Shown: in pieces, positions 1-41,116 of the stretch
How positions within the stretch are numbered: the first letter of the stretch is position 1
Layout: every line of letters starts with the position of its first letter
DNA from: Dillenia suffruticosa
Lineage: Eukaryota > Streptophyta > Magnoliopsida > Dilleniales > Dilleniaceae
Length of the DNA stretch: 64,000 nt
Direction of reading: 5' to 3'
Assembly: GCA_033439265.1 (NCBI GenBank)
Contig: JAVTVX010000016.1
Span: 18,398,701-18,462,700, forward strand
Made by a program: the position numbers and the translations under genes
The notes under the pieces: model-generated
Databases searched by the model: none
What the model was told of the DNA's origin: nothing
Seen by the model: the letters and a program-made list of their open reading frames with translations, nothing else

Positions 1-3000
1 AGCTACATTGTATGAAAGGAAGACTGCCTTGAATAAAGTTTTTTTATTAAAAAGCTTGCTAATTTGAAATATAAGGAAGGACGTTCTATTGCTAAGCACA
101 TAAGTGACTTTCAAGATGTGTTGAACCAGTTGACCACTTTGGAAATTAATTTGATGATGAGATACAAGTTTTGTTTCTCTTGAGTTCTTTGCCGGACAGT
201 TGGGAAATATTAATTGTGACTGTCAATAACTCGGCTCATAATGGCAAGCTGACATTGGCAATGGTAAAGGACAGCATGTTCAATGAGGAAGTAAGACGGA
301 AGATAATGGAATTTGGGAGGAGTCAAGTTCTTGTCTTTGAGAATAGGGGCAAAACTGAGAATAGAGTTCAAGATTCCAGAGGGCGCAGTAAGTCCAAAAA
401 GATGTCCAAGTCCAAGGAGGTAGTAAAGTGTTAATGCTGCAAGAAAACTGGTTACAGCAAGAGGAATTGTCAACACTTGAAGCATGAGAAGAAGGATGAA
501 AAGAGCAAGAATACTCCAGATGATAGTAATGCTGTAATGGTTGGTTTTGACGAAGGGATCGAGTCCTTTGTGTGTACACCAAGTGACTCCAATCATGTAG
601 GTTGGGGGACCCATTGTCAGAATGGATTGTTGAAACTGGTGCGGCATATCATTGTGTTCCCAAAAGAGAGTTGTTTATAACTTACAAAGAAGGTGACATT
701 GGTGTTGTCAAGATGGGAAACAACACTGTGTCGTAGAGTGTAAGAATTGGCGATACTGTTATCGAGACTAGTATTGGCTGTACATTGACTCTATGGGATG
801 CTAAACACATCTTAAACTTGCTTTCAATTAATGTCCTTGACAAGGAAGGATACGAGAGTCAGCAAAAGAATGGGCAATGGAAACTTCTCAAGGGAACTTT
901 GTTAGTTGTAGAAGGAAAATTGTGTTCCTGCATGTACAAGATCCAGTTGAGGGTGTGCAATGGGGAGGTCAAATCAATTGAGGACGATACTTCATCAAAT
1001 TTGTGGTATAAGAGGTTGGGACACATGAGTGAGAAAGGGTTGCAACTTTTGGAGAAACAGTCCCTTATTCCTTCGGCCAAATGTATTTCTCCAAACTCAT
1101 GTGATCATTGTTTATTTGATAAGCACCGTGGAGTCTCTTTCCGTATTCATTCTAAGAGGAAAGAAAATAAACTAGTATTGGTTTATATTGATATTTGTGG
1201 TCCCATGGAGGTTAAGTCTCTTGGTGGAAAAAGATAGTCACTTTTATTGATGATGCATCCCGAAAGATGTGGGTGTTTTTGTTGAGAACCACAAGTCAGG
1301 TTCTTCAACGTTTTCAAAGCTTTCATGCTATGGTGTAAAGGATGACATGATTACCCTTGAAATGTTTTCGTACCAATAATAGTGGAGAGTACACCTCTAA
1401 TGAGTTTAAAGCTTATTGTTTAAAGTATGAGATAAGGCATGAGAAGATAGAATCTGGGACACCACAGCACAATGGTGTGGCCAAGAGGATGAACCGCACC
1501 ATCATGGAAAAAGTTAGATTCATGTTGAGAATGGTTAAATTACCCAAATCCTTTTGGGGTGAAGTAGTTAACATAGTCAACTACCTAGTCAACAGATCAT
1601 CGTCAATTTCTTTGGGCTTTGACATTCTAGAAAGGGCGTGGACAGGCAAAGATGCTTCGTGTTCTCACTCGAAAGTCTTTGCTTGTAAAGCTTTTGTGCA
1701 TGTGCCAAAAAAATAGAGGTCAAAGTTGGACAGTAAAGCCACTCTGTGTTTATTGGTTATGTAATGAAGAGTTTGGTTACCGGTTATGGGATCCAGAACA
1801 AAGAAAGATTGTTAGGAGTGGAGATGTGGTTTTTTTTTATGACTAAAAAACTATAGCCGATTTTGAAAAGAAAGTGAAGACTTCACGAAGTGTTGGTGAG
1901 TATGAGGATGAGCAGCAGTTCCATCTTGTAGTGCCATGTATGGTGGAGATACAAATGGGACAGAACTTGGGGATGTAGATGAGCTAGCCACAGTTAGTGA
2001 TAGGTCGATGCCAGCGATGACATTGCACAGCCAGATGTAGTGGGTACTAAGTAGGGAGAGCAACCTCCTCTGCAAGAGAGTGAAGGATCTCAACTTAGGA
2101 GATCTACAAGAGAGCGTCGACCATCCACAAGATATCCTAGTTCTAAGTATATTTTGCTTACTAATGAGGGGGAGCCGGAGAGTTTCCAAGAAATCCAGTC
2201 CACTCCTGATAAGGAGTAGTGGTTGGAAACTACATGAGAGGAGATAAAAGGCTACTTAAGAATAAGTGAGTGTTCAAATTAAAGAAAGAGGGGGAGAAAC
2301 TAGTCAGATACAAAGCTCGTTTGGTGGTGAAAAGATTTGTTTAAAAGAAGGGCATAGATTTTGATGAGATTTTTTCACCAATAGTGAAGATGAGTTCCAT
2401 TCGAGTTGTATTGGGATTGGTGGCTAGTTTGAATCTGGAGTTTGAGCAACTTGATATTAAGACTGCATTCTTGTATGAGGATTTTTAAGAAGAGATATAT
2501 ATATGAACTAGCTAGAGGGTTTTGAAGTAAAAGGGAAGGAGGACATGATTTGCAAATTGAAAAAGAGCTTGTATGGGTTGAAACAAGCTCTCAGGCAATG
2601 GTACAAGAACTTTGATTCTTTTATGGTGGAACATTCCTATAAAAGAACAGATACAGATCATTGTGTGTATGTAAGATTATTCCCTAATGGCAACTTTATG
2701 ATTCTCCTGTTGTATGTAGATGACATGCTAATCGTAAGACAAGATGTTGAGATGATTCACAAGTTGAAAGATGACTTATCTAAATCTTTGAAATGAAGGA
2801 TTTAGGTCCAGCTAAATAGATTTTGGGTATGGATATTATCCGTGATGGGAGAACCGGAAGGTTGTGGTTATCTTAAGAAAGGTATGCTGAACGTGTGCTC
2901 AAATGGTTCAATATGCAGAATACTAAGTCAGTTAGCATGCCTCTTGCTAATCATTTTAAGTTGAATAAAAGTTCTTGTCCTGTAATTGAGTAAGAAAATC

Positions 3001-11751: not shown

Positions 11752-11761
11752 CAAATTCTTC
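11752..11761 (+). repeat. Left target-site duplication of the MULE
   Basis: CAAATTCTTC here is repeated exactly at 18459-18468, directly outside the opposite terminal inverted repeat. MULEs usually make 9 bp, sometimes 8-11 bp, duplications. Confidence 0.85.
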
Positions 11762-11875
11762 GAGCTTTGTACGGAAATGACACTAATTTTATAAAAAAAT
11801 TTTAAAACAATAAATTTAAAAAATATTTACAAAACTAATCTACCTATGTCGTGATTTCAAGTCACGACATATGTT
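11762..11875 (+). repeat. Left terminal inverted repeat of the MULE
   Basis: About 110 bp match the reverse complement of 18345-18458 with scattered differences, from GAGCTTTG to the first palindrome. Confidence 0.85.
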
Positions 11876-11980
11876 TAAAACGTGGTATGTCGTGACTTCA
11901 AGTCACGACATAGGGCATGTCTGACTTCAAGTCACGACATGCTCATTCTAGTGCCATGTCGTGAGTTCAACTCACAACAT
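11846..11980. repeat. Left subterminal palindrome array (4 copies)
   Basis: Copies lie at 11846-11870, 11887-11911, 11917-11940 and 11956-11980. Each is a 25 bp odd palindrome with arm ATGTCGTGACTT, one central base, then the complementary arm AAGTCACGACAT. The third copy has lost one base; the fourth carries compensating changes in both arms (GTGAGTTcAACTCAC), which preserves pairing. Confidence 0.9.
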
Positions 11981-12015
11981 GCTCGAATTTAGACCCCCGA
12001 TCCCTTCTTCTTTTC

Positions 12016-12406
12016 AAATTTTGTTCTGAATTAATCTCAAAAATTAAAAAAAAAAATTAAAACATCCTTCAAAAAATATTTTCAAAACTAACACACATAT
12101 GTCGTGACTTAACGTCATGACATTATTGTTCATTAAATAGTATCATGTGGCGATTTCAAGTCACGACATGACACTGTTCATCACGGTCTCATATCGTGAC
12201 TTGAAGTCACGACATGGTACTATACATGTCGTGACTTGAAGTCACGACATGACACTGTTGTGTTCATTCAACAGTGCATACTGTTCAATGAACAGTAATG
12301 TCGTGACTTTAAGTCACGACATAAATGTGTTAGATTTGTAAATATTTTTTGAAGGGTGTTGTTTTAAAATTTTTTTTGTTTTTGTGGTTAATTCAGAACA
12401 AAGCCC
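12016..12406. mobile_element. Nested MULE-family MITE, 391 bp
   Basis: The ends are AAATTTTGTTCTGAATTAA and, reverse-complemented, GGGCTTTGTTCTGAATTAA. The flanks CTTCTTTTC (12007-12015) and ATTCTTTTC (12407-12415) match at 8 of 9 bases. Inside are five copies of the same 25 bp palindrome, at about 12099, 12144, 12190, 12224 and 12298. It is clearly related to, but distinct from, the termini of the host element, so it is a relative inserted into the MULE and not a part of its TIR. Confidence 0.8.
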
Positions 12407-13104
12407 ATTCTTTTCTCCATTCTCTTTTTTCTTTCTTTCTTCCCCATTCTGCTTCTCCATGCTCCGCCGCAGACGAAACCCTTCTCCGCCTCTGCGCGCA
12501 CAAACTGCAACAGCCAAGGACATCTGCAACCTGGGGGAAATGAATTGACCACGATCCACTGCTTTTGAAAGTTCCACACGCGAAATTTAACGAAAGTAAA
12601 TTGTTGTTTGTGCTCCTTGAAATTTGAAATTTTATATATTTAAATTGATTAAATTTTGATATACATTATTCAATTGATATATTATTTGTTGATTTAACTA
12701 TATTTTGGAAACATGTAATTAGATATTAATATTTTAGGGTTTAGGTTTTTGTTGGAAATGAATGACAAATTAGGGATTAGGGTTTTTTTAATTTGGGATA
12801 AAATTAGGTTTTATGGTTTTTTTTTTATAAATGTATTAAAAGTAAAATTAGTTAGATTTATTAATTGTAGTTAAATAAAATTAGAATATTTTTTGATAAA
12901 ATTTGTTTATTGTTTGTTGTTTTGTTGTAAATTTAATTATAAGTTTTTAAATGAAAATTATATTAAATTTATTACTTATAGTTAAATTTATTATTTCTAG
13001 TTAAATTTTGTTTATTGTACGGTTCGTAGGAAAAATACTTGTATTTTCTGAAAATATTTTTTTGAAATGTATATTAATAAAATGTTTTTTGAATTTAAGT
13101 AGAA
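12407..13104. other. MULE leader region with a GC-richer patch
   Basis: Bases 12460-12560 are GC-rich compared with the rest. On the minus strand they encode a short MSLAVAVCARRGGEGFRLRR-like reading that could be a captured gene fragment, as in Pack-MULEs, but no family is recognised. Bases 12600-13100 are AT-rich and non-coding; the transposase start follows. Confidence 0.35.
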
Positions 13105-15657
13105 ATGACGGATATGGTGAGATTGTTATGTTACACAAATTGTGAAATTATGAAGGGTGAAAATGGAGTGGGCTATAACTGTGAACCTTCAAAATTGATT
13201 CGGGTGAAAAAAGATGTATCTTTTAATGAGTTGGTAACCATGGTCTGTAAGGGATTTGGAATCAATTCGACAAGACAACACGTAGAGATATTTCATCGTT
13301 GCCCTATGTCACACATGTAAAGGGGAACGAAGGTACGTATTGGTACCGATTAATGATGATGATGATGTTCTGAACTTGATAGAGTTTGCAGTGGCTATGG
13401 GAGTGGGTACAAGTCATGAGTTGTATATAAAGGCATACAATGGTCGGACGTTTGTCCCTATACAACAAGATTACGATTATGAAGAAAAATATCTACATAT
13501 CGAATCTCGAGTGGATGTTGCAATAGTAGACATGGATAATGATGTGGATGAAGAAGAATTGGCCGAAGAGGAGGCGGAACAAGATGCCAAAGAAGAGGAT
13601 GATGATGATGAAGAAGATGGTAGAGAAGCTGGTCGTACTAGTGGTCGTAGTTATGGAAATCAGACAATGTTTGGGTCATCTTCACAGCCTGTACCCATTC
13701 ATGGTAGTAGGAGATATCTCTATAGCGAAGTTGATGAGTCAATTCCTTTCATGCGAACTGCACCAAGAGGAGATGGTTATGTCACTTTTGATGAAGATTG
13801 TCGATTGACAATCGATAATGGGAGTTTTGAAAATGAAGTAAAGAAAGGTATGAGTTTTGAGTCGAAAGATGAACTTATACATTTTGTAAAAATGTATCAT
13901 GCGGAGAATCACTATCAATTTCATGTTAGGAAATCAACCCCTACACTTTGTACAACGGTATGTACTCAAAGGGACGAAAATTGTGGGTGGAGGTTGCGTG
14001 CACGTAAAATAAGACTACTTGATGCCTTTGTGATAACTGTTGTGGATGGACCGCATACATGTGTCAATACTAGGTTGACGCAGAATCATAGACAGTTGGA
14101 TTTGAATATGATGGCCCGACAGTTTGTTAACTATGTAAGGGAAGACCCAAGTATCAAAGTCTCTTTCCTACGAACCATTATGACGGAGAGAACCACATAT
14201 GTAGTTTCCCGAAGACGAGTTTGGGCTGCAAAAAGAAGGGCGATTGAGATGATATACGAGAATTGGGATGAATCATACAATGAGCTGCCTAGAGTTTTGG
14301 ATGCAATTATGCAAAAGAATCTAGGATCACAAGTGTATGGAAGTTCGGTCCGGCCTGAGCGAATGGTGAAATGGTGTTTGAAGCTATATTTTAGGCATTT
14401 GGTCCTAATATCATGACATTTAAAAGTTGTCGACCATTAATAAGTATAGATGAGACTCATTCGTATGGAAAATACAAGTACAAGTTGTTGATTGCATGCA
14501 GTATGAACGGAGCGAATCACATAATGCCGTTGGCATTCGGATTGGTGGATGTAGAGTCACTAGCGTCGTGGTCATGGTTTTTAATGTGCGTGCGAGACTA
14601 TGTTGTGTTAGATAGGGAGGGACCAATATGCTTGATTTCAGATCGACATGAAGGGACAAGAGCTACTGTTGCTCGTCCAGAGTTTGGATGGTTGCCTCCG
14701 CATGCCGTTTGGCGTTTTTGCATGAGGCATGTCGCTAGTAACTTTAACACGCATCATAAAAGTCAGGCTTGTAAGAGAGTCGCCGTAATTGCTGCATTAC
14801 AACCACAATGCAAGAAATTTGATCTATATGGCGAGAATGAAGGAGATAAAAATTGATACCCCCGATTACTTCGCGAACATTGGCCCTGAACAGTGGACTC
14901 TCTCTCACGATGGTGGCTTTCGTTATGGCTATATGATGACCAATATCAGTGAAAGTTATAATGCCGTGCTAAAAGGTACAAGGAATCTCCCTGTTTTTGT
15001 TTTGGTACTGAAGACATTTTATTATACGGTGAACTATTTTGAAAGTAGAATTGCTGAGGCGAAAGCGGGGATGGCAAGAGGAGAGCGGTATACGAAGTAT
15101 GCAAATGCCATGTTAGGAAGGTGGATGAACACCGCTAACCTTCATACGGTTATCTCTTTTAGTAGGGAGAATGGAATTTTTAAGATAGAAACAGGTCATA
15201 GACAAATACGGTATGGCCACAATGGAGGAAATAAACAAATCGTCGACGTTGCACATGTGGGAAATGACAAACGTATAGAATACCTTGCTCGCATGCAATC
15301 GCTGCACTATCATGGACCATGATGGATGTTCATATGATTGTCGGAAAATGGTATACGTGGCAACATCAACTTAAAGTGTACGAGTTATATTTTTCACCGG
15401 TAGGAGATAGATCTGGATGGCCAATCGGATCGTACCCAACTATCATTCCCGACGTATCACTAAGACGTGAGAGAAGGAGACCAAAGTCATCTTGATATCA
15501 TAATGAGATGGATATCCGAGAATCATCTTCGCGGGTATCGTGCGGCAGTTATAGTGTCGAGGGTCATAATCGGAGAAGATGCACGACACAAATGAAATGT
15601 GGTATTTGTGGAAGACAAGGTCACAACCGAAGAAATTGCCCAACCATATCGTATTGA
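13105..15657 (+). pseudogene. MuDR-type MULE transposase, decayed
   Basis: Domains in order: an N-terminal PB1-like segment (13105-13320), an acidic linker, the MuDR DNA-binding region (about 13830-14090, GMSFESKDELIHFVKMYHAE, then CGWRLRARK) and the MULE DDE core (14413-14990). The first Asp is in SIDETHSYGKYKYKLL, the second in LISDRHEGTRATV and the Glu in NISESYNAVLKG. A SWIM zinc finger (about 15255-15310, RRCTCGK-QTYRIPCSHAIA) and a C-terminal zinc knuckle (CGICGRQGHNRRNC) ending at 15657 complete it. Breaks: frameshifts near 13300-13320, 14340-14380, 14830 and 15235, a TAG near 14375, and a TGA replacing Trp in the SWIM motif. The acidic residue after the first Asp (DET, where relatives have DGT or DET) looks normal. 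It cannot make a full protein. Confidence 0.9.
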
Positions 15658-15914
15658 TATAAATAGTTTTTGTGTTTTAGTTAAAAATTATGTATTTCTT
15701 ATTACAACGGATATCATGTATTTGTTTTTCGTATATTTAACTTTTGGTATTTTCAGTTAGAATGTGTTATGATATTCATGTTTATAAATGTGTATTTCTA
15801 TTTATTTAAATGATTACTTGTAATCTAAATTAATTGAGCATTTGAAATGTAATTTACTTTTAGCATTACGTATTTGTAATCTAATATGTTATTTTTTCTT
15901 TCTTTATTTTGCAG

Positions 15915-17770
15915 ATGGATCCAAGCCCTTCTGATCCGAGTGTGCTCCGGTTACAGCGATGACACCGTTCTTCTCACCTTTGGGAGGGAGTCAGCACGAC
16001 GTTTACGCTCACTTGCTGTCGACACGAGACCGTATTACACCATTGGGACCACCGTCACATCGACGAGAGAGTCCTTCCTCTTTTGGAGCACTCTGGATTT
16101 TTGGGCATCGCTCGACTTTGCTTCATTCAGTTCGATTGGCATTTTATCACTGTTCTAGTCGAGCGATGGAGGCCACAGACACATACTTTTCACCTTCCCC
16201 ATGGTGAGATCACTATTACCCTTTAGGATATTGAGATTTTGTTAGGGTTATCTATGGATGGCCATCCGCTCGTTTCTAGGACGACGGGAGTGGCATGGGG
16301 TGATGTATGCGAGAGACTTTTAAGTGTTAGGCCACCACGGTCTGCCGTTAGAGGATACACTTTGAGCATGCCATGGTTGTTTGAGGTTTTTGATGATTTG
16401 TCCGCTGGTGTTTATGATATAGCAATTTTACGATGGACACAGACTTATATTTTACTTTTGAAAGGGGGTGTCCTGTTTTCTGATAAAACAGGAACTTTTA
16501 TACATTTATAGTTTTTATTATTTTTAGAGGATTTAGAGTTGTCAGATACATTTAGTTGGGGATCTGCGTATTTGACATATCTATACAGACAATTTTGTAT
16601 AGCCACGTATGCACATGCACGTGAGATTGGGGGGGCGTTAGTTTTGTTATAGATTTGGGGGTGGGAGCGATTTCCGTATATGACTCCTATTCGACGAGAT
16701 TTGCACGTAGATGGGGATGGACTACTCGGTTTGCGGTGGCACGCTCAGTTTGATGTCACTATATTCCCTACACACGTTGTTTCCGTTTATAGGGAGACAT
16801 TCGATAGGTAGATGGTCGATCAGGTCATTTGGGTCCCGTACTCGGATGATGTATTGTCATCCCTCCCCACCTACTGTCACAGGGAGAGGAATATTTGACA
16901 CGCACGGGTCCCTTTGATTTGGCTCAGTATCGTGGAGTGGTACTTTCCAAATAGGGTGTTACGACAGTTTGGAGGCTTGCAGTACGTTCCGGGTGAGTGT
17001 GATACCGATGACAGACTTCACGATATGAGCACGCGGGGTACTCTAGGGGTTGATTGGTCAGCAGTGCATGCAGTGTACATAGATCTTTGGAGTCACCGAC
17101 ACGACCATGTAGTTCCGTTAGATACCTCCTTCGGACCTGCGCTCGATTTTGACTATTCGGTTTGGTTTCACTCCATCTTCCGTAGATTTGTCGGTCGTCG
17201 GGGAGCTTCTTTGACTTACGTGGTAAGTTTTCCTTTACTACCTTCTTTTCATTCTCAATCAAAGAATTTAATTTATTGTTTTAATTATTTTTCACATTAT
17301 TATTTGTAGTGGGACACTTTGCACGAGATACGAGACAATCCTGGTGCCGACGTTCGTGGCCTTGCTGAGTTGGCTATCTCGGTTCTGGCAGATGATATGG
17401 CACATCTTTTCAGTGATCGCCCCGAGACAGATGGCACAGACGGTGGTGATGCAGGCCGAGCACATGGACGACGATGAGGGAGAGGACAGCGTACGAGATC
17501 TCGACGCTCGTCCAAACATGCGTCACCGCCATCGTCACAGCAACCCGAGAATGTCGCAGGACCTTCTACTACGTTCGGTGAGTCTTCAGATTTCTACACG
17601 TCTGTGTTTGATGACTTCTCTCAGGTTTTCACTCCGGGGGCTCCTCGGAGGGAAGCTCGTCCCGATAGCTTTATGGATGACGGACTGACACAGGACGTAA
17701 GAGATAATGCACCGCTAGTGTATCATGTGTTTCCGCCTGTTTTCTCTGTCCCTATCAGCAGGATGTAGAC
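15915..17770 (+). pseudogene. Plant mobile domain (PMD, MAIN-like) protein gene carried by the MULE
   Basis: Exon 1 runs 15915-17222 and stays in a single frame for 436 codons. It starts MDPSPSDPSVLRLQ and contains VLVERWRPQTHTFHLPHGEI, LLGLSMDGHPLV, LLLKGGVLFSDKTG, FSWGSAYLTYLYRQFC and IWGWERFPY, all hallmarks of the PMD family (also annotated as 'serine/threonine phosphatase 7 long form homologue'). An 87 bp GT-AG intron (17223-17309) leads to an exon from 17310 with a Ser/Arg-rich tail. In-frame stops interrupt it (TGA after LQR, TAG before DIEILLG, TAG at 16509, TAG before IWGWE, others), but there is no frameshift. PMD proteins in plants act in gene silencing, and many copies are transposon-borne. 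An AG acceptor just before the ATG hints at a 5' UTR intron. Confidence 0.85.
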
Positions 17771-18254
17771 CCCTCCCAGATCACACAGATAGATGATATG
17801 AAATTAGTATCTCGTGATGACTCTATAGGCAGTAGAGTAGCTTTTAGGTCTTAGACAGTATATTAGAAGAAGACGATGACATTGATTTTTTATTTTTGTA
17901 ATTTGTAATTGCTATTAAAATTAATAAAATTAATTTTATTTATTTATTTTGTTCATTGTACTTTTTTTATTACTTTTTGGTTTTTGAGATTTATTGCTGA
18001 TCAATTATGATATTTGGACAGTATTGCATATGAAATCTGGTTATAAGATAGAAAATTGGTTGATTTGGCTACTATTGGAGTTTGTGGTATTTGTGTTGTA
18101 TTTTAGTATTTGTGTTGTGACGTAAATTTAGATAGCAGAATGGTTGATTTGGCCACTATCGGAGTTTGTAGTGTTTGTGTTGTGTTGTAGTATTTGTTTT
18201 GTATTGTAAATTTGGACAGTATATAATATGAAAATTGATTTTGGGCAGTAGGCA
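17771..18254. other. 3' non-coding part of the MULE
   Basis: AT-rich sequence with a short imperfect direct repeat near 18060 and 18145 (TGGTTGATTTGGC-ACTAT...GGAGTTTGTGGT). No gene seen. Confidence 0.4.
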
Positions 18255-18375
18255 GAAATATGTCATGAATTCAACTCACGACATGGTATTAAAATGATCA
18301 TGTCGTGACTTGAAGTCACGACATGGTCACGACATGTATTGTTCATGCATGTCGTGACTTAAAGTCACGACAAAG
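18255..18375. repeat. Right subterminal palindrome array
   Basis: It contains copies at about 18261, 18299 and 18347 plus a half copy near 18327. The copy at 18299 is full; the first has diverged in one arm (ATGTCATGAATTC). Together with the left array it brackets both genes. Confidence 0.85.
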
Positions 18376-18458
18376 ATGGATTAGTTTTGTAAATATTTTT
18401 TAAACGGTATTGTTTTAAATTTTTTTTATAAAATTAGTGTCATTTCCGTATAAAGCTC
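18345..18458 (-). repeat. Right terminal inverted repeat of the MULE
   Basis: The end reads ...TCATTTCCGTATAAAGCTC, the reverse complement of the left end with one difference in the first 20 bases. The TSD follows at 18459. Confidence 0.85.
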
Positions 18459-18468
18459 CAAATTCTTC

Positions 18469-23735: not shown

Positions 23736-24488
23736 TCAAAATATCACTAGCAATGAAAACAACACGTAAATCAAGAAACAGGCGTACGCTATCAATCCTC
23801 GATGCTCATCCCCGCAATGAGCAAGCTCCACCAGGAGCCTGGTGCAAATCCTAGTTGCCCAGGTCACAAAAACACCCGCCATGACATACATCGCCACCCC
23901 GCCTTGAGGCACAAACAGAGCAAATGCCGAAAGCATCACAATGGGAAGCATACAATACCCAATCAAGCTCAGGCATCTATGCAAATCCAAATTCCCACTC
24001 TTCCCAGCTAACATATTGAACACAACATACAGAAACAATGCAGAAGCAAATCCCCAACCCAATATGATCCCGAAATGAATTTTTCCCGCGAGTAATTGGA
24101 ACAACCCGAATGCGACAACAAACAAGAAAGGACCAGATAAATCGGCTTCTTCGTGAAGGGAAGAATTTACCCTAAATGGATTGACCATTGCTAGGGTTTT
24201 ATCTCTGATTTGCCTAGGGTTGATTCCGAGTTCTTCAAGTAATGGGGGTTCGTCCTCGATTCGCAAACCGGAAACTCCAATCGATGAGGAACCAATTGGC
24301 GGTGTTGAAAACGATGTGGAAGCAGTTGCAGCGCCGATGTCGAAGGACATGAAGGGAATGCCAGGGTTCGCCGGTCTTGGTGGCTGAAACGGCGTCGTCG
24401 GAGGACGGCGTTGGGTCATGCCGGACCCTCCAGGGTTTACGCTGCCGGATGGGAATACTACTGGTGGAACGTTGAATTGCTTCGCCAT
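23736..24488 (-). CDS. YIP1/YIPF5-family integral membrane protein
   Basis: This is one uninterrupted 250-residue frame with no intron. YIP1-family proteins bind Rab GTPases and work in ER-Golgi membrane traffic. Residues 1-105 are a Pro/Ser/Gly-rich cytosolic tail starting MAKQFNVPPVVFPSG. The conserved PPLLEELGINPRQIRDKTLA segment comes next, then NPFR and the DLSGPFLF entry to five hydrophobic segments (about residues 120-250), including the GYCMLP motif. It ends HRGLIAYACFLIYVLFSLLV. I chose the ATG at 24488; the codons just upstream (GTG ACT) are not a start. The length is close to that of plant homologues (about 280). The region just upstream holds a CT-rich leader, as expected for a housekeeping gene promoter and 5' UTR. 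Confidence 0.92.
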   Translation of the reverse strand: MAKQFNVPPVVFPSGSVNPGGSGMTQRRPPTTPFQPPRPANPGIPFMSFDIGAATASTSFSTPPIGSSSIGVSGLRIEDEPPLLEELGINPRQIRDKTLAMVNPFRVNSSLHEEADLSGPFLFVVAFGLFQLLAGKIHFGIILGWGFASALFLYVVFNMLAGKSGNLDLHRCLSLIGYCMLPIVMLSAFALFVPQGGVAMYVMAGVFVTWATRICTRLLVELAHCGDEHRGLIAYACFLIYVLFSLLVIF

Positions 24489-25200
24489 AGTCACAGAACT
24501 CTGTGTCTCTCTCCCTCTAAAAACCTTCTTTCTCTTTTGGGAATTAACAACTGAAGGATATAAAGATCAGATCCGTGGTGAGAATCTTAATGAGAGAGAT
24601 AGAGAGATTAGGGTTTTGTTCTGAGAGCGGTTAATCAAATCATGGAGATTATGGAAATCAGATTTTCTTTTTTTTTTGGGGCGGGGGGGTTTCGGGTTTG
24701 GGAATTTGAGAGGAAATCTATGCGGAGAGCGGAATTATTAACGGAAAAAGAAGAGGATTTCTTTACCTAGCGGATACAGAAAGGAGATGGAATTACAATT
24801 TACCAATCCTCGCTCCCCTCTCCTTTCTTCCTTTCCTTCTATTTTCTCTCTCTTCTCTCTCTCTCCGTCTGCGCCCACTTTCCAGAGGCGTTTCCCCAAG
24901 TTTTATTGCGTCATATGCTCTGTATTTTAATTTTTTTAAAAAATGATTCTTTGAGGAATCTTGACGTGGCGGGATTTTATTGGCTCGCTGATGCCAAAGG
25001 CAAAATTATCACTGGCCTTGGGAATCCGAATTATTCTGACCCATGCGTTTAGGAGTCCGGGGAATAAAATCTGCGGAAATAAAAGAGCAGAACGTCCCGA
25101 GCGAGTAGTCTTAACACAATCTCCTTTTTCCGATCCTCATATAAAAAGACGACAACCAAATGCCTATCCATAAATTAAGATGGACTGCATACATCCTCTT
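24489..25200 (-). promoter_or_regulatory. 5' UTR and presumed promoter of the YIP1-family gene
   Basis: It contains pyrimidine-rich tracts on the plus strand (24830-24870), i.e. a GA-rich leader on the coding strand, and an ATTGG (CCAAT on the other strand) near 24976. No clear TATA box position can be assigned. The only support is its position upstream of the ATG. Confidence 0.4.
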
Positions 25201-25652
25201 CCCCCATTATTTAATTAATTTTTATTAAATAAATAATATTTAAAATTATATTTTAATTAATTTAATTTAAATAATTATTAAATTCTTTTTAATGAAAAAC
25301 ACTATTAATATAATTATTTTTATTTTCAAAATTCAAATTCAAATTTTAATTAAAAAATTTAACATCCTTCTTACGAGATCAACTGTTCATTAATTCTTAA
25401 CCACTTTAATTCTACATTATCGTATCTTTATATATATGGTTGTTTCTTTTTATATAATAATAATAATTATAACACCGACACTATGGTATCCGTACTATTT
25501 TACTCCTATTTAGAAATTAAATAAAATATTTCTCAGTTATATATATAGAGAAAATTTTCATTTATTTTAATTTTTAATTTTGGGTATTTAAATTGAATTT
25601 TTTTAGTATATTTTAAATTTTTACCATATCCGTAAATTTTGGTGTAAAATGA

Positions 25653-25678
25653 ATATATATATATATATATATATATAT
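25653..25678. repeat. (AT)n microsatellite
   Basis: An uninterrupted run of about 13 AT units, directly followed by an (AAT)n stretch to 25698. Confidence 0.9.
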
Positions 25679-28431
25679 GTAAATAATAATAATAATAAGA
25701 GTAAAAAAAAACAGCGGGGTGCTGCGTTTTGAGGCAAAACGCAGCACCTCCCAAATTGGATTAGGGCTTTTAGCATTAATCTCTTTCTCTTTTTCCCTCT
25801 CTCTCTCTCTCTTCCTCTCTCTCTTCTCTCTCTCTTTCTCTCTCTCTCTCTCCGCCTCTTCTCCTTCCCGCGGCCGCCTCACCTTCCTCCCCCTCCGCCG
25901 CCGCTCTCTCTCCACCGCTGCTCCTCCCTCCCCGCGAGTGCAGCCTCCCCACGAGCGCGATCCTCCTCGCGCGAGCGCGTGCCTCAGCTCTTGAGCTTGC
26001 CAGCCTGCAGCGCGATCCTCCTCACGCGAGTGCGCCACTACGTGCGATTTTCTGCCAGCACTCCACAGTGTGAACGCGAGCACGTGACTGCCCCGAGCAC
26101 TCCACAGCACGAACGCACCTGCTCCGGAGCGCACCTGAGCACGAGCGCGCGCAACCCGCGAGCGCGCCCTTGCACGATCTCCCCAGCGTGAGCTCGCCCC
26201 TGTGTGACCCTCCCCGCGCGAGCGCGCCACAGCACGCTACCTCCCACGGGCGTACAACTGCAGACCAGTCCGCGAGCCCCCAAGCCCGCGAGCCCACCAG
26301 CCCGCGACGGCCCGTGAACCTGCGATGGCCCACGAGCCCGCGACCTGTAGGTCCCTGTAGAAACCCCTAGGTCGCGGCTTCTTCACTGCAGGTAACGGCT
26401 ATGTTGATTGTAGTCCTAGCGTTGGGTATTTAGAATTTGAGTTAGTTGTTAATATTGTTCAAATTTGAAAATATTATATGTTTTAAATCAATTCGATGGG
26501 CGAACGAAAGCTAAGTCTGAGATTTGCAAAACCCTATGTGAGAGAGAAATGCAATCACTTACACGTTTGAAATAAATTTTATCGAATTTACGTTGAAATT
26601 AGAATTGGAAGCTACATATATGTTCTAAAATATGTTAAATTTAAAGAAAATTAAAAAAATGAGAAATATTGGAAATTTAATCATTTGTGAGCCAAATGAT
26701 TCGAAATTTATGAAACGGGAATATAGAAAGGAGATAGTGTAAATTAAGGTTGTATTAATTAGGAAAGAAAATGAAAAATCCGTTTATAGGTTACTATTTG
26801 ATATTAAATTGTGATGATCTGATTATATTGATTTTTTTGAAGACTCGAGGAGTCAGATTAGATAATTTTTTAAAATATGGAGTGACCACCCTCTCTAAAA
26901 ATGTGAATGGGACCCTAATCTCTTGTATGAAATAGTGAAATATGATTTTATCATATTTTTAATAAAATATACTTTTGATATGCATTGTCTCGACGTATGG
27001 AATTAAAATTCAAATCTGTTTTGTGATTATTGGAGTGTCGTATTTATGTTTCTACGATTATGCATCCATATTTGGAATGAAATGAAATTGTGTCATGATT
27101 TGAGAAATGAAATGTTTTCTATTTTACAATTGCATTGGTTTGTTGAATTTAAATGATTTCGATAAAATATATTGACATGCGGATTTGAATTGTTTTGAGG
27201 ATATGACGAGATGATTTGGCTATGTGAGTTGGATGGCTACTAAATTGAGATGATATGATGATATGACATTATTTGATAAATTTTGTAACTACGAAGGGCG
27301 TTTGTAAAGGCACCGGGTTGTCCGGATACACTTCTGCAGGAGGTATCCGCAAACATCATATTTCTAATGGTTATAGGCGCAGCCAATTGAACTCAAGTAA
27401 GGGGGAGGATGTGTGTGACGCCATCGTCTAGCACCGGCCAGGATCCTATACACGATGATGAGCTAGCCCCAGTGAACTCATGGCCAACGTCGAGGTAGAG
27501 AGTGATTTTTGAACTTTATACATAATAAAACCTCCGATGTGTCTGTTCTTGGTCATGGTTGACCTTTGCCAAGATCCTTTCGGCTTGCTCTATGATCTAC
27601 TTGATTTTAAATGGATGCATATATTTATGTTATCGTGTGAATGATTAAATGAGTTTATTTTAACGAACATATCATGATTTACTGCAAAAATTTGAATTAT
27701 TGGTTATGAATGATATTATTTGACACTCTAATATTTATCTACACTATTAGTACTTGAGATTAATCCCCTCATTCACTGGGTATCTTCCTTGATACTCACC
27801 CCCCTTTTTTCCCTCCTCGGATAGGATTATTGTGCTAGAGTGACTTTTCGGCTCTTGAGGAATTTGTAACTCGTTGGCGGATTTGAGTGTTTTTCAACGG
27901 TGAGATTTAAATTAAGTTAAGATATGAGCTCCGCACTTTATTTTCAACCCAATGACGTCTTGACCTTGAGATCCGTAGTTAACTGTGTATTTATTTGGGA
28001 TTGACTGTATAATTTATGTATATTAAATTGCGAAACTCTCATATTTCATTTGTATTGAGGCAAATCGTAGTGTTTGAATGTTAATTTGAAAAAATTGGTT
28101 GTAAATTATATAAAACTTAACCCCGCTCATTGTGGCGGCTACTCATGCTCTAATTAGGCATAACAATAGAGGTCTGTGGTTAGAATTATTGGTAATTTAC
28201 ATAGTCTGGCGTTGTTTTGGATATCTGCTGTAATTGGTAGGTTGTTATGAGGCCGGGATAGCTATTTTATTTTATTTACAGGATATTTTTAAATTATACA
28301 TGTTTAAATAGGTTTATTTATACATGAAAAATCTCCGATTTATGGAGAGATTCTGTTCGATTTTTTATAAAAATACAGCCGGTATTCAGGATAACGGATG
28401 GCTGCTCACAATCCCGGTTCAAGATGTGACA
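25678..28431 (+). mobile_element. Probable solo LTR of a gypsy-type element (2.75 kb)
   Basis: The block starts TGTAAATAATAATAATAA and ends ...AAGATGTGACA, giving TG...CA ends. It has no flanking internal domains. Its structure fits long plant gypsy LTRs: a short hairpin at the start, a CT-rich then very GC-rich leader (25780-26390), an AT-rich body, and a late GATACTCACCCCCCTTTTTT motif. The flanks ATATA and ATAAT agree at only 3 of 5 positions, and the left one lies in a microsatellite, so the TSD is not convincing. The open frames over the GC-rich part (on both strands) are composition artefacts. Confidence 0.45.
25718..25748. repeat. 14 bp stem, 3-base loop hairpin
   Basis: GGTGCTGCGTTTTG is followed by AGG and then its exact reverse complement CAAAACGCAGCACC. 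It lies about 40 bp inside the presumed LTR start. Confidence 0.85.
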
Positions 28432-30650
28432 ATAATCATATTTTATATTATATATTCATTTATAATTAATTTATATCATATTTTATTGTCATAATTCAAA
28501 TTTATTTATTCTTTCTCTCTCAATTAATATAAGTATTTATCATAATCTAATATCGTCTGTCTAAAACCCTAATCGTATATAATAAAAATTACAATAACTA
28601 TTATCATGAATTTTTTGTCAATGAATTTGAATTTCCTATACAAGAGAACAACGATATGAAATTAAGATATATTTTTAACTTTTTACCGATCAACTTTTCA
28701 AAAGAAAAGATGAGTATTAAAAATATTATCAAATTAATTTTATATTTTAAAATTGATTATAGTTAAGATCATTGTTTTAAAGGAAGGGGATTATCTATCT
28801 TTTTCGGTATTCATTTTCTTACTTCCTAATTGATTAATATTATTTTTTTATTAATTTTACATAATATTTAATTTTAATTTAAACTTTTTATAATAAAAAA
28901 TACTTTAATATAAATGGAAACAAATCTCATCTATGTCTAAATGCGCGATCTTGCATGTTAAAAGTAGATGTCATTATTCGATTTTTTATAATTTTTTATA
29001 ATTTTTATAATTTCTATAATTTTTAAGAAAATCAACTGTGAATTACTCGGATTCTATTTTCTTAATATATTTTTTATATTGAGATTTTCTTATAAGAAGA
29101 CTTAATGATATTGATTTCCATTCTATATTTGATTTTTTAATTATAAAAGGTTTAATTTAGAATAATAGATTTAAAAATATTATTTAAAATTAGTAAGAAA
29201 ATAATATTAATCATTTGGATGAAAGGGGCAGAGGATACGATCCAATTTTAGATGTGAATTTTATAAAAACATTACGAATGATAATTATTTCAAAAAATAG
29301 ATTTCATTGTAGGATAGTTTCATCAAATTATTTGAAATTTTAGATTACCCTAAACTACAATAGATAAAGTATAATTAACCAAATGTAAAGTGTAATTGAT
29401 CATGGTGCTATCGAACGTATTATCTCATGTAAACTAGAGATAAAAACTATAATTTATTTTCTTTAAGACTTGTTCTAAAAATATTTGAAATAGGAGCGAA
29501 AAACACTGCAACTATGACTCGTCTCTGTGGTCCAAACGAGACCTAAAAAATTATTAGTTTGTTATATCAGTTCTATTATTTACATTATTAATTTATTAAA
29601 TTTTTATTTCCTTTTCGTGTTTTAATTTTTCCAACAATTGTAATGAATTTGAGTTTTTCGAATAGACAGAATAATGAAATGCACTATACATGCAAGAGAC
29701 AAGTTTAATGAAACAAAAAATTAGAAACTATTGAATAGTATATAAGATTATCATAAAACAAAATATAATAAAAGTGATGTTGTTGTTGCACATATCACAA
29801 ATGCCTAGCATCACAGTTTTAACTTATGACTATCACCAAAGAAAAATACATGTAGTTTCCTTTGAAATTCTTAATTTATTTAATTTTATTTATAATAATT
29901 TTAATTAGATCTAAAATTTTTTAATAAAAAATCTATTGAATTTTACAAATATAATTTAAATTTCTTAATACCAAAAAGATGACTAGAATTATCATTATGT
30001 TAATAATTTTACATCCAGAATAAATTCAACTCTCTCTTCTATACGACAAAAAAAGGAAAGAAGGTGCGAAATTCAATTAGTTCATAGGTAAAAATTTTCA
30101 AGCCGTATCAAAAGATTTCAAAATTAAATTTCACTAATTTCATAATTGAAAATCTCACTCATATTAGATTTTAAAGATTTATCAATGAGTAAAGCGTTAT
30201 TTTTATCGCAACACTCAATAAATCCAAAAATGAAACACAAATAATACCATGGAAAGTCCAAATGATTAAATCCAATTAACTTGTAAATCTATCCCATATA
30301 AATGAAATTAAGTTTTGTCATAAATATTGACATTTTATTATGAGTTTTTTCAATATAAACCGTATAAAAACTATAAGAAAACCTGATTTTCTCTTCTTCT
30401 TTTTTCATATAAAAAAGGGTAAGAAAATCCAATTTTCTTTTTTCTTTTTTTGTAAAGTTGTTAAACATTTGACTTATCATTTATTTGACATTAAAAATTT
30501 TTTCCCTTAGAACGTGCATTTACCTATATTTAATTACAGTATGCTTTTTCTCTGCAATATTTATTGACCATTCCTGTACTTGTGTACAAAATAATTTTTT
30601 TACAGTAATATTATTTTTAAACTATATATGTAGATTTTAAAAATTAAAAG
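28432..30650. other. Very AT-rich intergenic DNA
   Basis: I see no open frame with family resemblance and no terminal repeats; only AT-rich low-complexity sequence. Confidence 0.5.
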
Positions 30651-39668: not shown

Positions 39669-40794
39669 GAGTTTTGTACCGAAATAACTTCAAAAAAATT
39701 TTTTTTAAATAACCCAAACGAAAAAATATTTCCGTTTTTAACTCACATTTGTCAGGAGTTGAAGATGCGACACACTGTGTCGCATTTTCAACCCGCGACA
39801 AAGTCTAGACAGAGAGAGAGAGAGGAGTCAAGGGAGGGAGAGAGAGAGGGGAGGAGAGCGGCGGGGGGCGGAGGGGGGAGGGAGGAGGGCGGCGGGGGGA
39901 AGGAGAGAGAGAGGGGAGGACTGCGGAGGGGTGTGGAGGGGGGAGAGAGAGAGAGAGGGGGAGGGAGGGAGAGAAAGAAGGGAGGGCAGCGGGGGGTCCG
40001 CCGGGGGAGGGAGAGAGAGAAAGAGGGGAGGAGCACGGTGGTGGGCGGAGGGGGGAAGGAAAGAGAGGGAAGGGGCGTGGCGGGGTGTAGAGGGGGGAGG
40101 GAGAGAGAGAGGGGAGGGCCGCGGGGAGGCGGAGGGGGGAGGGAGGGAGAGAAAGAGGGGAGGGCTCTGTCTCTCTCTCCCTCCCTCCTTCGCCTCCCGC
40201 TCCTCCCCTCTGTCTCACTCCCTACCCCCTTCGCCCCCCGAAGGAGGAGCGTGGCGCCGCTGCGCTCCTTCTCTTTCTCTCTCTCCCTCCCCCTCTGCAC
40301 GCCGCTCCTCCCCTCTCCCTCTCCCTCCCCCTCTGCCCCCCGTGGCCCTTCCCTCTTTCTCTCTCTCCCTCCCCCCTGCGCACCCCACCGCGCCCCTCCT
40401 ATCTCTCTCTCCTTCCCCCTCCTCCCCCACCGCACTCCTCCCCTCTTTCTCTCTTCCTCCCCCGGCGGACCCCCCGCCGCCCTCCCCTCTGTCTCTCCCT
40501 CCCTCCCCCCTCCGCGGCCCTCCCCTCTGTCTCTCTCCCTCCCCCTCCGCACCCTGCCGCAGTCCTCCCCTCTCTCTCTCTCCTTCCCCCTCCGCCCCCC
40601 GCCGTCCTCCTCCCTCCCCCCTCCGCCCCCCACCGCTCTCCTCCCCCCTCTCTCTCCCTCCCCCCGGACTCCTCTCTCTCTCTGGACTTTGTCGCGAGTT
40701 GAAGACGCGCCACAGTGAAATGGGTTAGAAACGAAAATATTTTTTCGTTTGAATTATTTTAAATTTTTTTTTGAGTTATTTCGGTACAAAACTC
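39669..40794. mobile_element. Fold-back, non-autonomous MULE (1,126 bp)
   Basis: The termini are GAGTTTTGTACCGAAATAAC and, reverse-complemented from the right, the same 20 bases. An exact 9 bp TSD AGCAAGATC flanks it (39660-39668 and 40795-40803). Inside the termini lies an imperfect hairpin (39750-39805) around GATGCGACAC/GTGTCGCATT. The left half is an almost pure purine minisatellite (39805-40163); the right half is mostly its pyrimidine complement (40168-40690). So the whole element can fold on itself. It belongs to the same family as the 11762-18458 MULE. It sits 57 bp upstream of the aminopeptidase ATG. Confidence 0.88.
39805..40690. repeat. Purine/pyrimidine minisatellite arms of the fold-back MULE
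   Basis: Units resemble GGGAGAGAGAGAGGGGAGGA followed by GCGCGGTGGGGGGCGGAGG, repeated six to eight times, then inverted in the right half. A small GC hairpin at about 40232-40275 marks the inner part. Long open frames on both strands arise because purine-rich DNA lacks stop codons. Confidence 0.85.
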
Positions 40795-40904: not shown

Positions 40905-41116
40905 AAGTTTTGTTCCGAATTAACCTCAAAAAAAAAAATAAAATAAAATAATATCATTCAAAAAATATTTCCAAAACTAATACACATATGTCGTGACTTG
41001 AAGTCACGACATTACTGTTATCAGTCACGACATGGTATATTGGATTTGGAAATATTTTTTGAAATGTGTTGTTTTAAAAAATTTTTTATTTTTGAGGTTA
41101 ATTCGGAACAAAGCTC
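40905..41116. mobile_element. MULE-family MITE inside aminopeptidase exon 1 (212 bp)
   Basis: The ends are AAGTTTTGTTCCGAATTAACC and, reverse-complemented, GAGCTTTGTTCCGAATTAACC shown here up to base 21 only in part. The neighbours TTCTTCCCC (40895-40903) and TTCTTTCCC (41117-41125) match at 8 of 9. It contains one full 25 bp palindrome at about 40989-41013 and a half copy near 41023. It separates the first 15 codons of the transit peptide from the rest, and reading from the ATG into the element reaches a stop. Confidence 0.85.

Follow-up and report, generated by a model that had tools for sequence, protein, structure and literature searches.

The stretch of Dillenia suffruticosa DNA analysed here (assembly GCA_033439265.1, contig JAVTVX010000016.1, positions 18,398,701 to 18,462,700; 64 kb, hereafter the window) contains a Mutator-like element (MULE) of 6,697 bp at window positions 11762-18458, which carries on its + strand a MULE transposase gene and, downstream of it, a plant mobile domain (PMD) gene. 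An earlier note, made from the letters of this DNA, had reported a MULE with these two genes, and this observation is confirmed. We think, with a probability of about 0.72, that the element is a dead member of a MULE family with two genes, comprising at least two subfamilies called A and B below, and that in this family the PMD gene serves the transposon.

The left end starts at 11762 with GAGCTTTGTACGGAAATGAC, and the right end is its inverse, closing at 18458. Aligned with each other, the two ends are 90% identical over 100 bases and score 148, compared with a maximum of 40 from random alignments, and they are flanked by a target-site duplication, CAAATTCTTC, that matches at 10 of 10 positions. 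In the same window, an exact 10-mer arose by chance in 8 of 200,000 random site pairs. The convincing ends and the exact 10-bp duplication of the earlier note are thus upheld, and all features by which a MULE is recognized are present, namely a target duplication of 8-11 bp (10/10 here), long inverted ends and a DDE transposase with zinc-finger parts. The element is organized as follows (no strand is assigned to duplications, arrays and the nested relative).

11752-11761: left target-site duplication, CAAATTCTTC, 10/10 match to the right copy
11762-11870, +: left terminal inverted repeat, outer part, 90% identity to the right end over 100 bases
11846-11980: left subterminal palindrome array, the element's own, with sites at 11846, 11887 and 11956
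12017-12406 (about 390 bp, bounds +/-1): nested non-autonomous relative with five palindromes; target duplication 8/9 or 8/8, according to where the bounds are set
13105-15657, +: transposase pseudogene with DBD_Tnp_Mut, MULE DDE domain, SWIM and CCHC motifs
15915-17222, +: PMD pseudogene, exon 1, a single frame without frame change, six premature stops
17223-17309, +: inferred PMD intron, GTAAGT...TTGTAG; the exon break lies at the same place in open A and B copies
17310-17879, +: PMD pseudogene, exon 2, in-frame stop at about 17475, frame change near 17750
18260-18373: right subterminal palindrome array, with sites at 18260, 18300 and 18349
18350-18458, -: right terminal inverted repeat, outer part, inverse of the left end
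18459-18468: right target-site duplication, CAAATTCTTC, 10/10 match to the left copy

Four frame changes divide the transposase into five segments, one in-frame stop interrupts it further, and the intact frame that marks an autonomous element is absent from this copy; in the open relative L026 the transposase has 855 codons. In the window, Pfam detects the MULE domain PF10551 at 3.2e-14 and DBD_Tnp_Mut at 1.3e-4, the latter below its cut-off. PF10551 is also present in open relatives, as are the SWIM and CCHC motifs, which can be read in the frames of the window too, so that the description as a MuDR transposase with DDE, SWIM and zinc-knuckle parts is borne out. Viral contigs searched with the DDE and PMD pieces contained no relatives, and in a sequence search of the PDB the PMD piece had no match and the DDE piece just three, all at chance level, the best with E 0.44.

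With its stops read through, the second gene matches PF10536 with 232 bits, above the curated cut-off of 34.9, which identifies it as a plant mobile domain gene; the open relatives reach 276 and 296 bits. In the window itself, the Pfam match to PMD falls into two pieces (8.7e-8, below the cut-off, and 6.1e-11, above it), and as all MULE and PMD matches lie on the + strand, the two genes are co-oriented at the positions first reported. The PMD gene of this copy holds seven premature stops (six in exon 1, one in exon 2), and exon 2 matches in two pieces that lie in different frames. At each of the six exon 1 stops, L026 encodes R, Q or W, and a C>T or G>A change is the sole difference. A fold of this exon with the stops read as Q or W had a mean pLDDT of 31.2 and was left unused. 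Directly before the PMD ATG, A and B copies show a T-rich CAG or TAG, and an intron in the PMD 5' leader is possible. Splicing of PMD onto the transposase was also considered, but no frame-joining donor was seen by eye at the transposase end, and this structure was not adopted. As both genes are broken, this copy can make neither protein intact and cannot act as the self-regulator suggested earlier; for the family, that role is weighed below. The disruption of both genes, the nested relative and the palindromes add to what the earlier note had described.

The decay itself follows a pattern. On its own branch, the PMD gene of this copy has collected 44 replacement, 4 stop and 8 silent changes, compared with 17 replacement and 17 silent changes in the open relative. 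In an alignment of four copies, 157 of the 245 changes private to this copy are C>T or G>A, and these hit 8.7, 7.7 and 7.0% of the CG, CHG and CHH sites, respectively. Their share is 106/151 in L049 and 74/106 in L028, both of which are broken, and 52/195 in the open relative. The copy has decayed mainly through C-to-T changes in every cytosine context, as would be expected for an element that was methylated and silenced.

A two-gene family in the host genome

The host assembly comprises 596 Mb in 37 contigs, and as the best candidates of each search were scored, the counts given here are lower bounds. A search with the left end yielded 40 matches (the best 40 of 254 candidates), and among those listed, the ends of a further 12 elements, 2.7 to 6.6 kb long, could be paired by eye. 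Twenty of the 40 end-loci, representing 15 elements, were read, and every one of them holds transposase or PMD sequence: PMD sequence was found in 13, and the remaining seven are left ends that show transposase. The earlier note had reasoned that its claim would fall if the same ends occurred without PMD throughout the genome. Instead, the ends flank transposase or PMD in 20 of 20 cases, and the same ends with the same genes at other loci identify PMD as a component of the family.

The association is also seen from the side of the transposase. With the open A transposase as query, 53 loci were scored (the best 53 of 2,517 candidates), and in 45 of them a PMD match lies downstream on the same strand within 1.5 kb; among the matches listed for these 53 loci, none places PMD on the opposite strand within 6 kb. 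Eighteen transposase matches are free of stops, and 12 of these (11 B, 1 A) are accompanied by a full-length stop-free PMD exon 1, so that the intact copy called for by the earlier note is found twelve times over, as judged from transposase and PMD exon 1. Exon 2 is open in L026 and in all three B copies compared (L010, L011, L014). Intact members therefore carry a two-exon PMD gene in the same orientation as the transposase and about 230-250 bp 3' of it; exon break and gene spacing are common to A and B.

Subfamily A, with ends as in this copy, includes this copy, L026, L028 and L049, whose mutual identities are 90-94%. Subfamily B, of which L010 is an example, has other ends and shares about 71.7% DNA identity with A over both genes. 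B copies are numerous and near-identical (99.4% over 7.9 kb for L010 and L011), which indicates a recent spread of this subfamily. Exact 10-bp duplications flank L010, L011 and L026, an exact 9-bp duplication flanks L049, and 8 of 9 positions match at L028; in four other B copies the two ends could not both be located with a simple end pattern.

When open copies of A are compared with open copies of B, dN/dS is 0.125 for the transposase (bootstrap 0.099-0.157; dS 1.15) and 0.163 for PMD exon 1 (0.106-0.227; dS 1.45). These values show that the frames of both genes, for which purifying selection had been proposed as a check, have been under such selection since the split of A and B. The similar dS of the two genes fits a joint descent, with the reservation that values above 1 are imprecise. 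Low dN/dS together with joint travel alongside the transposase makes PMD look like a selected second gene and not like a passenger. The definition of a Pack-MULE, in which host gene fragments replace the transposase, does not apply, as transposase and PMD are both present and are transmitted together.

Three points weigh against this view. Eight of the 53 transposase loci have no PMD among the matches listed, which does not imply a real absence. PMD exon 2 is far looser than exon 1, with a dN/dS of 0.344 (0.194-0.531). Finally, if PMD had been captured twice, the selection seen between A and B could stem in part from the time spent as a host gene; the similar dS of both genes argues otherwise, but imprecisely. 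As a separate observation, a likely duplicated host PMD gene was encountered at L009 and L018 (81% mutual identity over 325 residues), which at both loci adjoins the same conserved unrelated open reading frame and not a transposase.

Subterminal palindromes and gene-less relatives

The least expected part of the finding is an arrangement of palindromes of about 25 bp near the element ends. Eleven of them are present in this copy when up to three mismatches are allowed, five of which lie inside the nested element, and none would be expected by chance. The 23-bp palindrome of A elements is TGTCGTGACTTNAAGTCACGACA and that of B elements is TGTCGCGGGTTNAACCCGCGACA; the genome holds 286 perfect copies of the A type and 133 of the B type, and the reversed patterns occur 0 and 0 times. 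In the elements examined, the palindromes are confined to positions near the ends. Neighbouring A sites are mostly spaced by 29-31 or 38-41 bases (55 of 64 spacings below 90), a regularity that can also stem from tandem copying. B palindromes frequently come as pairs separated by about 1.7-1.9 kb, for example at C2:2702376 and 2704131 or at C4:5831912 and 5833754, which are perhaps gene-less B derivatives.

The palindromes of A and B disagree at three of their six inner positions, and every change is found on both arms. At the ninth position, the pairs in 90 A sites are C:G in 44, G:C in 21, G:G in 2 and C:C in 0 cases. Complementarity of the inner pairs within A is 0.909 and exceeds the shuffle maximum of 0.877, but the shuffles ignore relatedness and three A loci (L032, L038, L049) overlap. 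Within B no excess pairing is seen (0.865 versus 0.866 shuffled), which is contrary to a simple covariation story. The case for a kept dyad symmetry comes from the comparison of A with B and from one A position, and copying from arm to arm could produce the same picture. It is plausible that the arrays are protein-binding sites. By eye the palindromes bear no resemblance to the host "DOWN" motif CATGCAGTTT (PMC9899485; this and all other papers are cited here from those parts of their text that were accessible), which was considered and dropped. Within the same limits, a literature search on subterminal palindromes of MULEs recognised no such arrangement, and its absence from print is not thereby established.

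Shorter relatives carry the palindromes as well. The junction of the nested 390-bp relative is spanned without insert at 10 other loci, corresponding to 9 elements. A 212-bp gene-less relative at 40905-41116 of the window (bounds +/-1), flanked by an 8/9 duplication, has kept one perfect palindrome, which suggests a cis-acting mobility site. Close by, at 39669-40794, lies a gene-less element of 1,126 bp. Its ends are related as well, with GAGTTTTGTACCGAAATAAC on either side, and it is flanked by an exact 9-bp duplication, AGCAAGATC; the interior, as judged by eye, consists of a long arm rich in purines and, after it, an arm rich in pyrimidines.

As to the setting, the observed/expected ratio of CpG is 1.03 inside the 6,697-bp element and 0.40 and 0.52 in its flanks, but some other stretches of the window, such as 24001-30000, are equally high, so the element is not unique in this respect. 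An 84-bp tandem repeat in two copies occupies 18046-18213, in the 3' part of the element. Elsewhere in the window, a frame with a Yip1 domain lies at 23739-24566 (-) and a copia-type gag_pre-integrase fragment at 737-1234 (+).

Possible roles of the element-borne PMD protein

In the two-gene reading that we prefer, the transposase would act on the element ends, probably via the palindrome arrays. These are candidate binding sites for a dimeric element protein, and the transposase is the most likely one, as short gene-less relatives keep the palindromes. The PMD protein would work for the transposon. MAIN, MAIL1 and PP7L are required for silencing of transposable elements and for the expression of some genes including MORC1 (PMC5418596, PMC7156037, PMC9899485), and the likeliest single job of the element's PMD, at somewhat less than even odds among the jobs considered, would be to interfere with or imitate the MAIN/MAIL1-PP7L pathway, so that the element stays open to transcription. 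As a second and more tentative job it might be a transposition helper, comparable to mudrB of maize.

Such a helper could also leave silencing untouched altogether and simply aid integration or bind the ends or palindromes. mudrB is apparently needed for integration (PMC6446971), and palindromes found only near the ends are what would be expected of cis mobility sites; but Pfam shows no DNA-binding domain besides PMD in the element's PMD protein, and the host PMD proteins are linked to silencing and transcription (PMC7156037, PMC9899485). We regard a PMD that acts purely as a helper as possible but doubtful.

It is rather unlikely that the arrays together with an element protein, either the PMD protein or the transposase, serve for self-recognition, with paired changes on both palindrome arms having set A and B apart much as VANC proteins and their motifs have diverged. 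PMD would then be recruited to the arrays, and each subfamily would keep its own copies transcribable. If true, an anti-silencing system would have been made from a domain that serves silencing in the host. The opposite function, a self-limiting repressor that mimics MAIN/MAIL1 and restrains its own element, appears quite improbable: the silencing of transposable elements is indeed released on loss of MAIN or MAIL1 in Arabidopsis (PMC5418596, PMC7156037), but the recent burst of near-identical B copies with open PMD genes speaks against a repressor. A passenger host gene fragment in the style of a Pack-MULE, with no role for the element, is strongly disfavoured and very unlikely, since, even if host sequence is often picked up by MULEs (PMC13317346, PMC6446971) and PMD is broken in this copy, PMD exon 1 has a dN/dS of 0.163 between A and B, transposase and PMD stand together in 45 of the 53 loci listed, both are stop-free (PMD in exon 1) in twelve copies, and A and B agree in exon break and spacing.

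The analysis thereby provides direct evidence from a single genome that, unlike a passenger, a transposon-borne PMD is kept by selection beside the transposase. The published speculation that PMD proteins encoded by transposable elements are counter-silencing factors becomes testable, as the family offers recent near-identical copies and clear candidate DNA sites. If the palindromes were binding sites of PMD, they would be the first biochemical handle on a domain whose function is described as unknown in PMC5418596 and PMC8616336.

Comparison with known systems

Both PMD-bearing MULEs and the anti-silencing idea are already published. In several angiosperm groups of MULEs, most members are listed with a PMD gene (Dupeyron et al. 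2019, PMC6446971, Table 1); the capture of PMD-C by MULEs and its possible anti-silencing role were put forward by Ikeda et al. 2017 (PMC5418596), and the counter-silencing idea was repeated in a 2021 review (PMC8616336). Eudicots are described as having mainly genic PMD-C (Nicolau et al. 2020, PMC7156037). The element's PMD shares its Pfam domain with host PMD genes, that is with MAIN and MAIL1 of Arabidopsis and with the likely host gene at L009 and L018, and the latter is about 23-28% identical to the element PMDs over long alignments.

Muta1 of Aedes aegypti (PMC5225508) is likewise a MULE with repeated subterminal motifs (a 12-bp repeat present nine times) and numerous derivatives that lack genes. 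Its repeats are tandem 12-mers, in contrast to the present family, and only its 10-bp end motif is an imperfect palindrome; the accessible part of that paper makes no mention of PMD. The VANDAL/Hiun elements, which carry the gene for the anti-silencing protein VANC (PMC5735166), resemble the family in having an extra gene and subfamily-specific arrays of short motifs in non-coding DNA. There, the motifs are one-way tandem repeats, whereas here they are near-end palindromes, known from sequence alone; no VANC-type match was found in the proteins scanned with Pfam.

Closest are the PMD-carrying angiosperm MULEs (MULE-Monocots, MDR, MUDRAVI2 and MUDR; PMC6446971, PMC5418596), which share the SWIM-finger transposase, long terminal inverted repeats, a duplication of 9-10 bp and the additional PMD. 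For some of these groups PMC6446971 gives the orientation of PMD as frequently antisense, and fusions of PMD with the transposase are described by Ikeda et al. (PMC5418596), whereas in the present family PMD is a separate gene and has the sense orientation in every pair detected. Unlike those elements, as far as their published descriptions were accessible, the family in D. suffruticosa bears arrays of palindromes at its ends.

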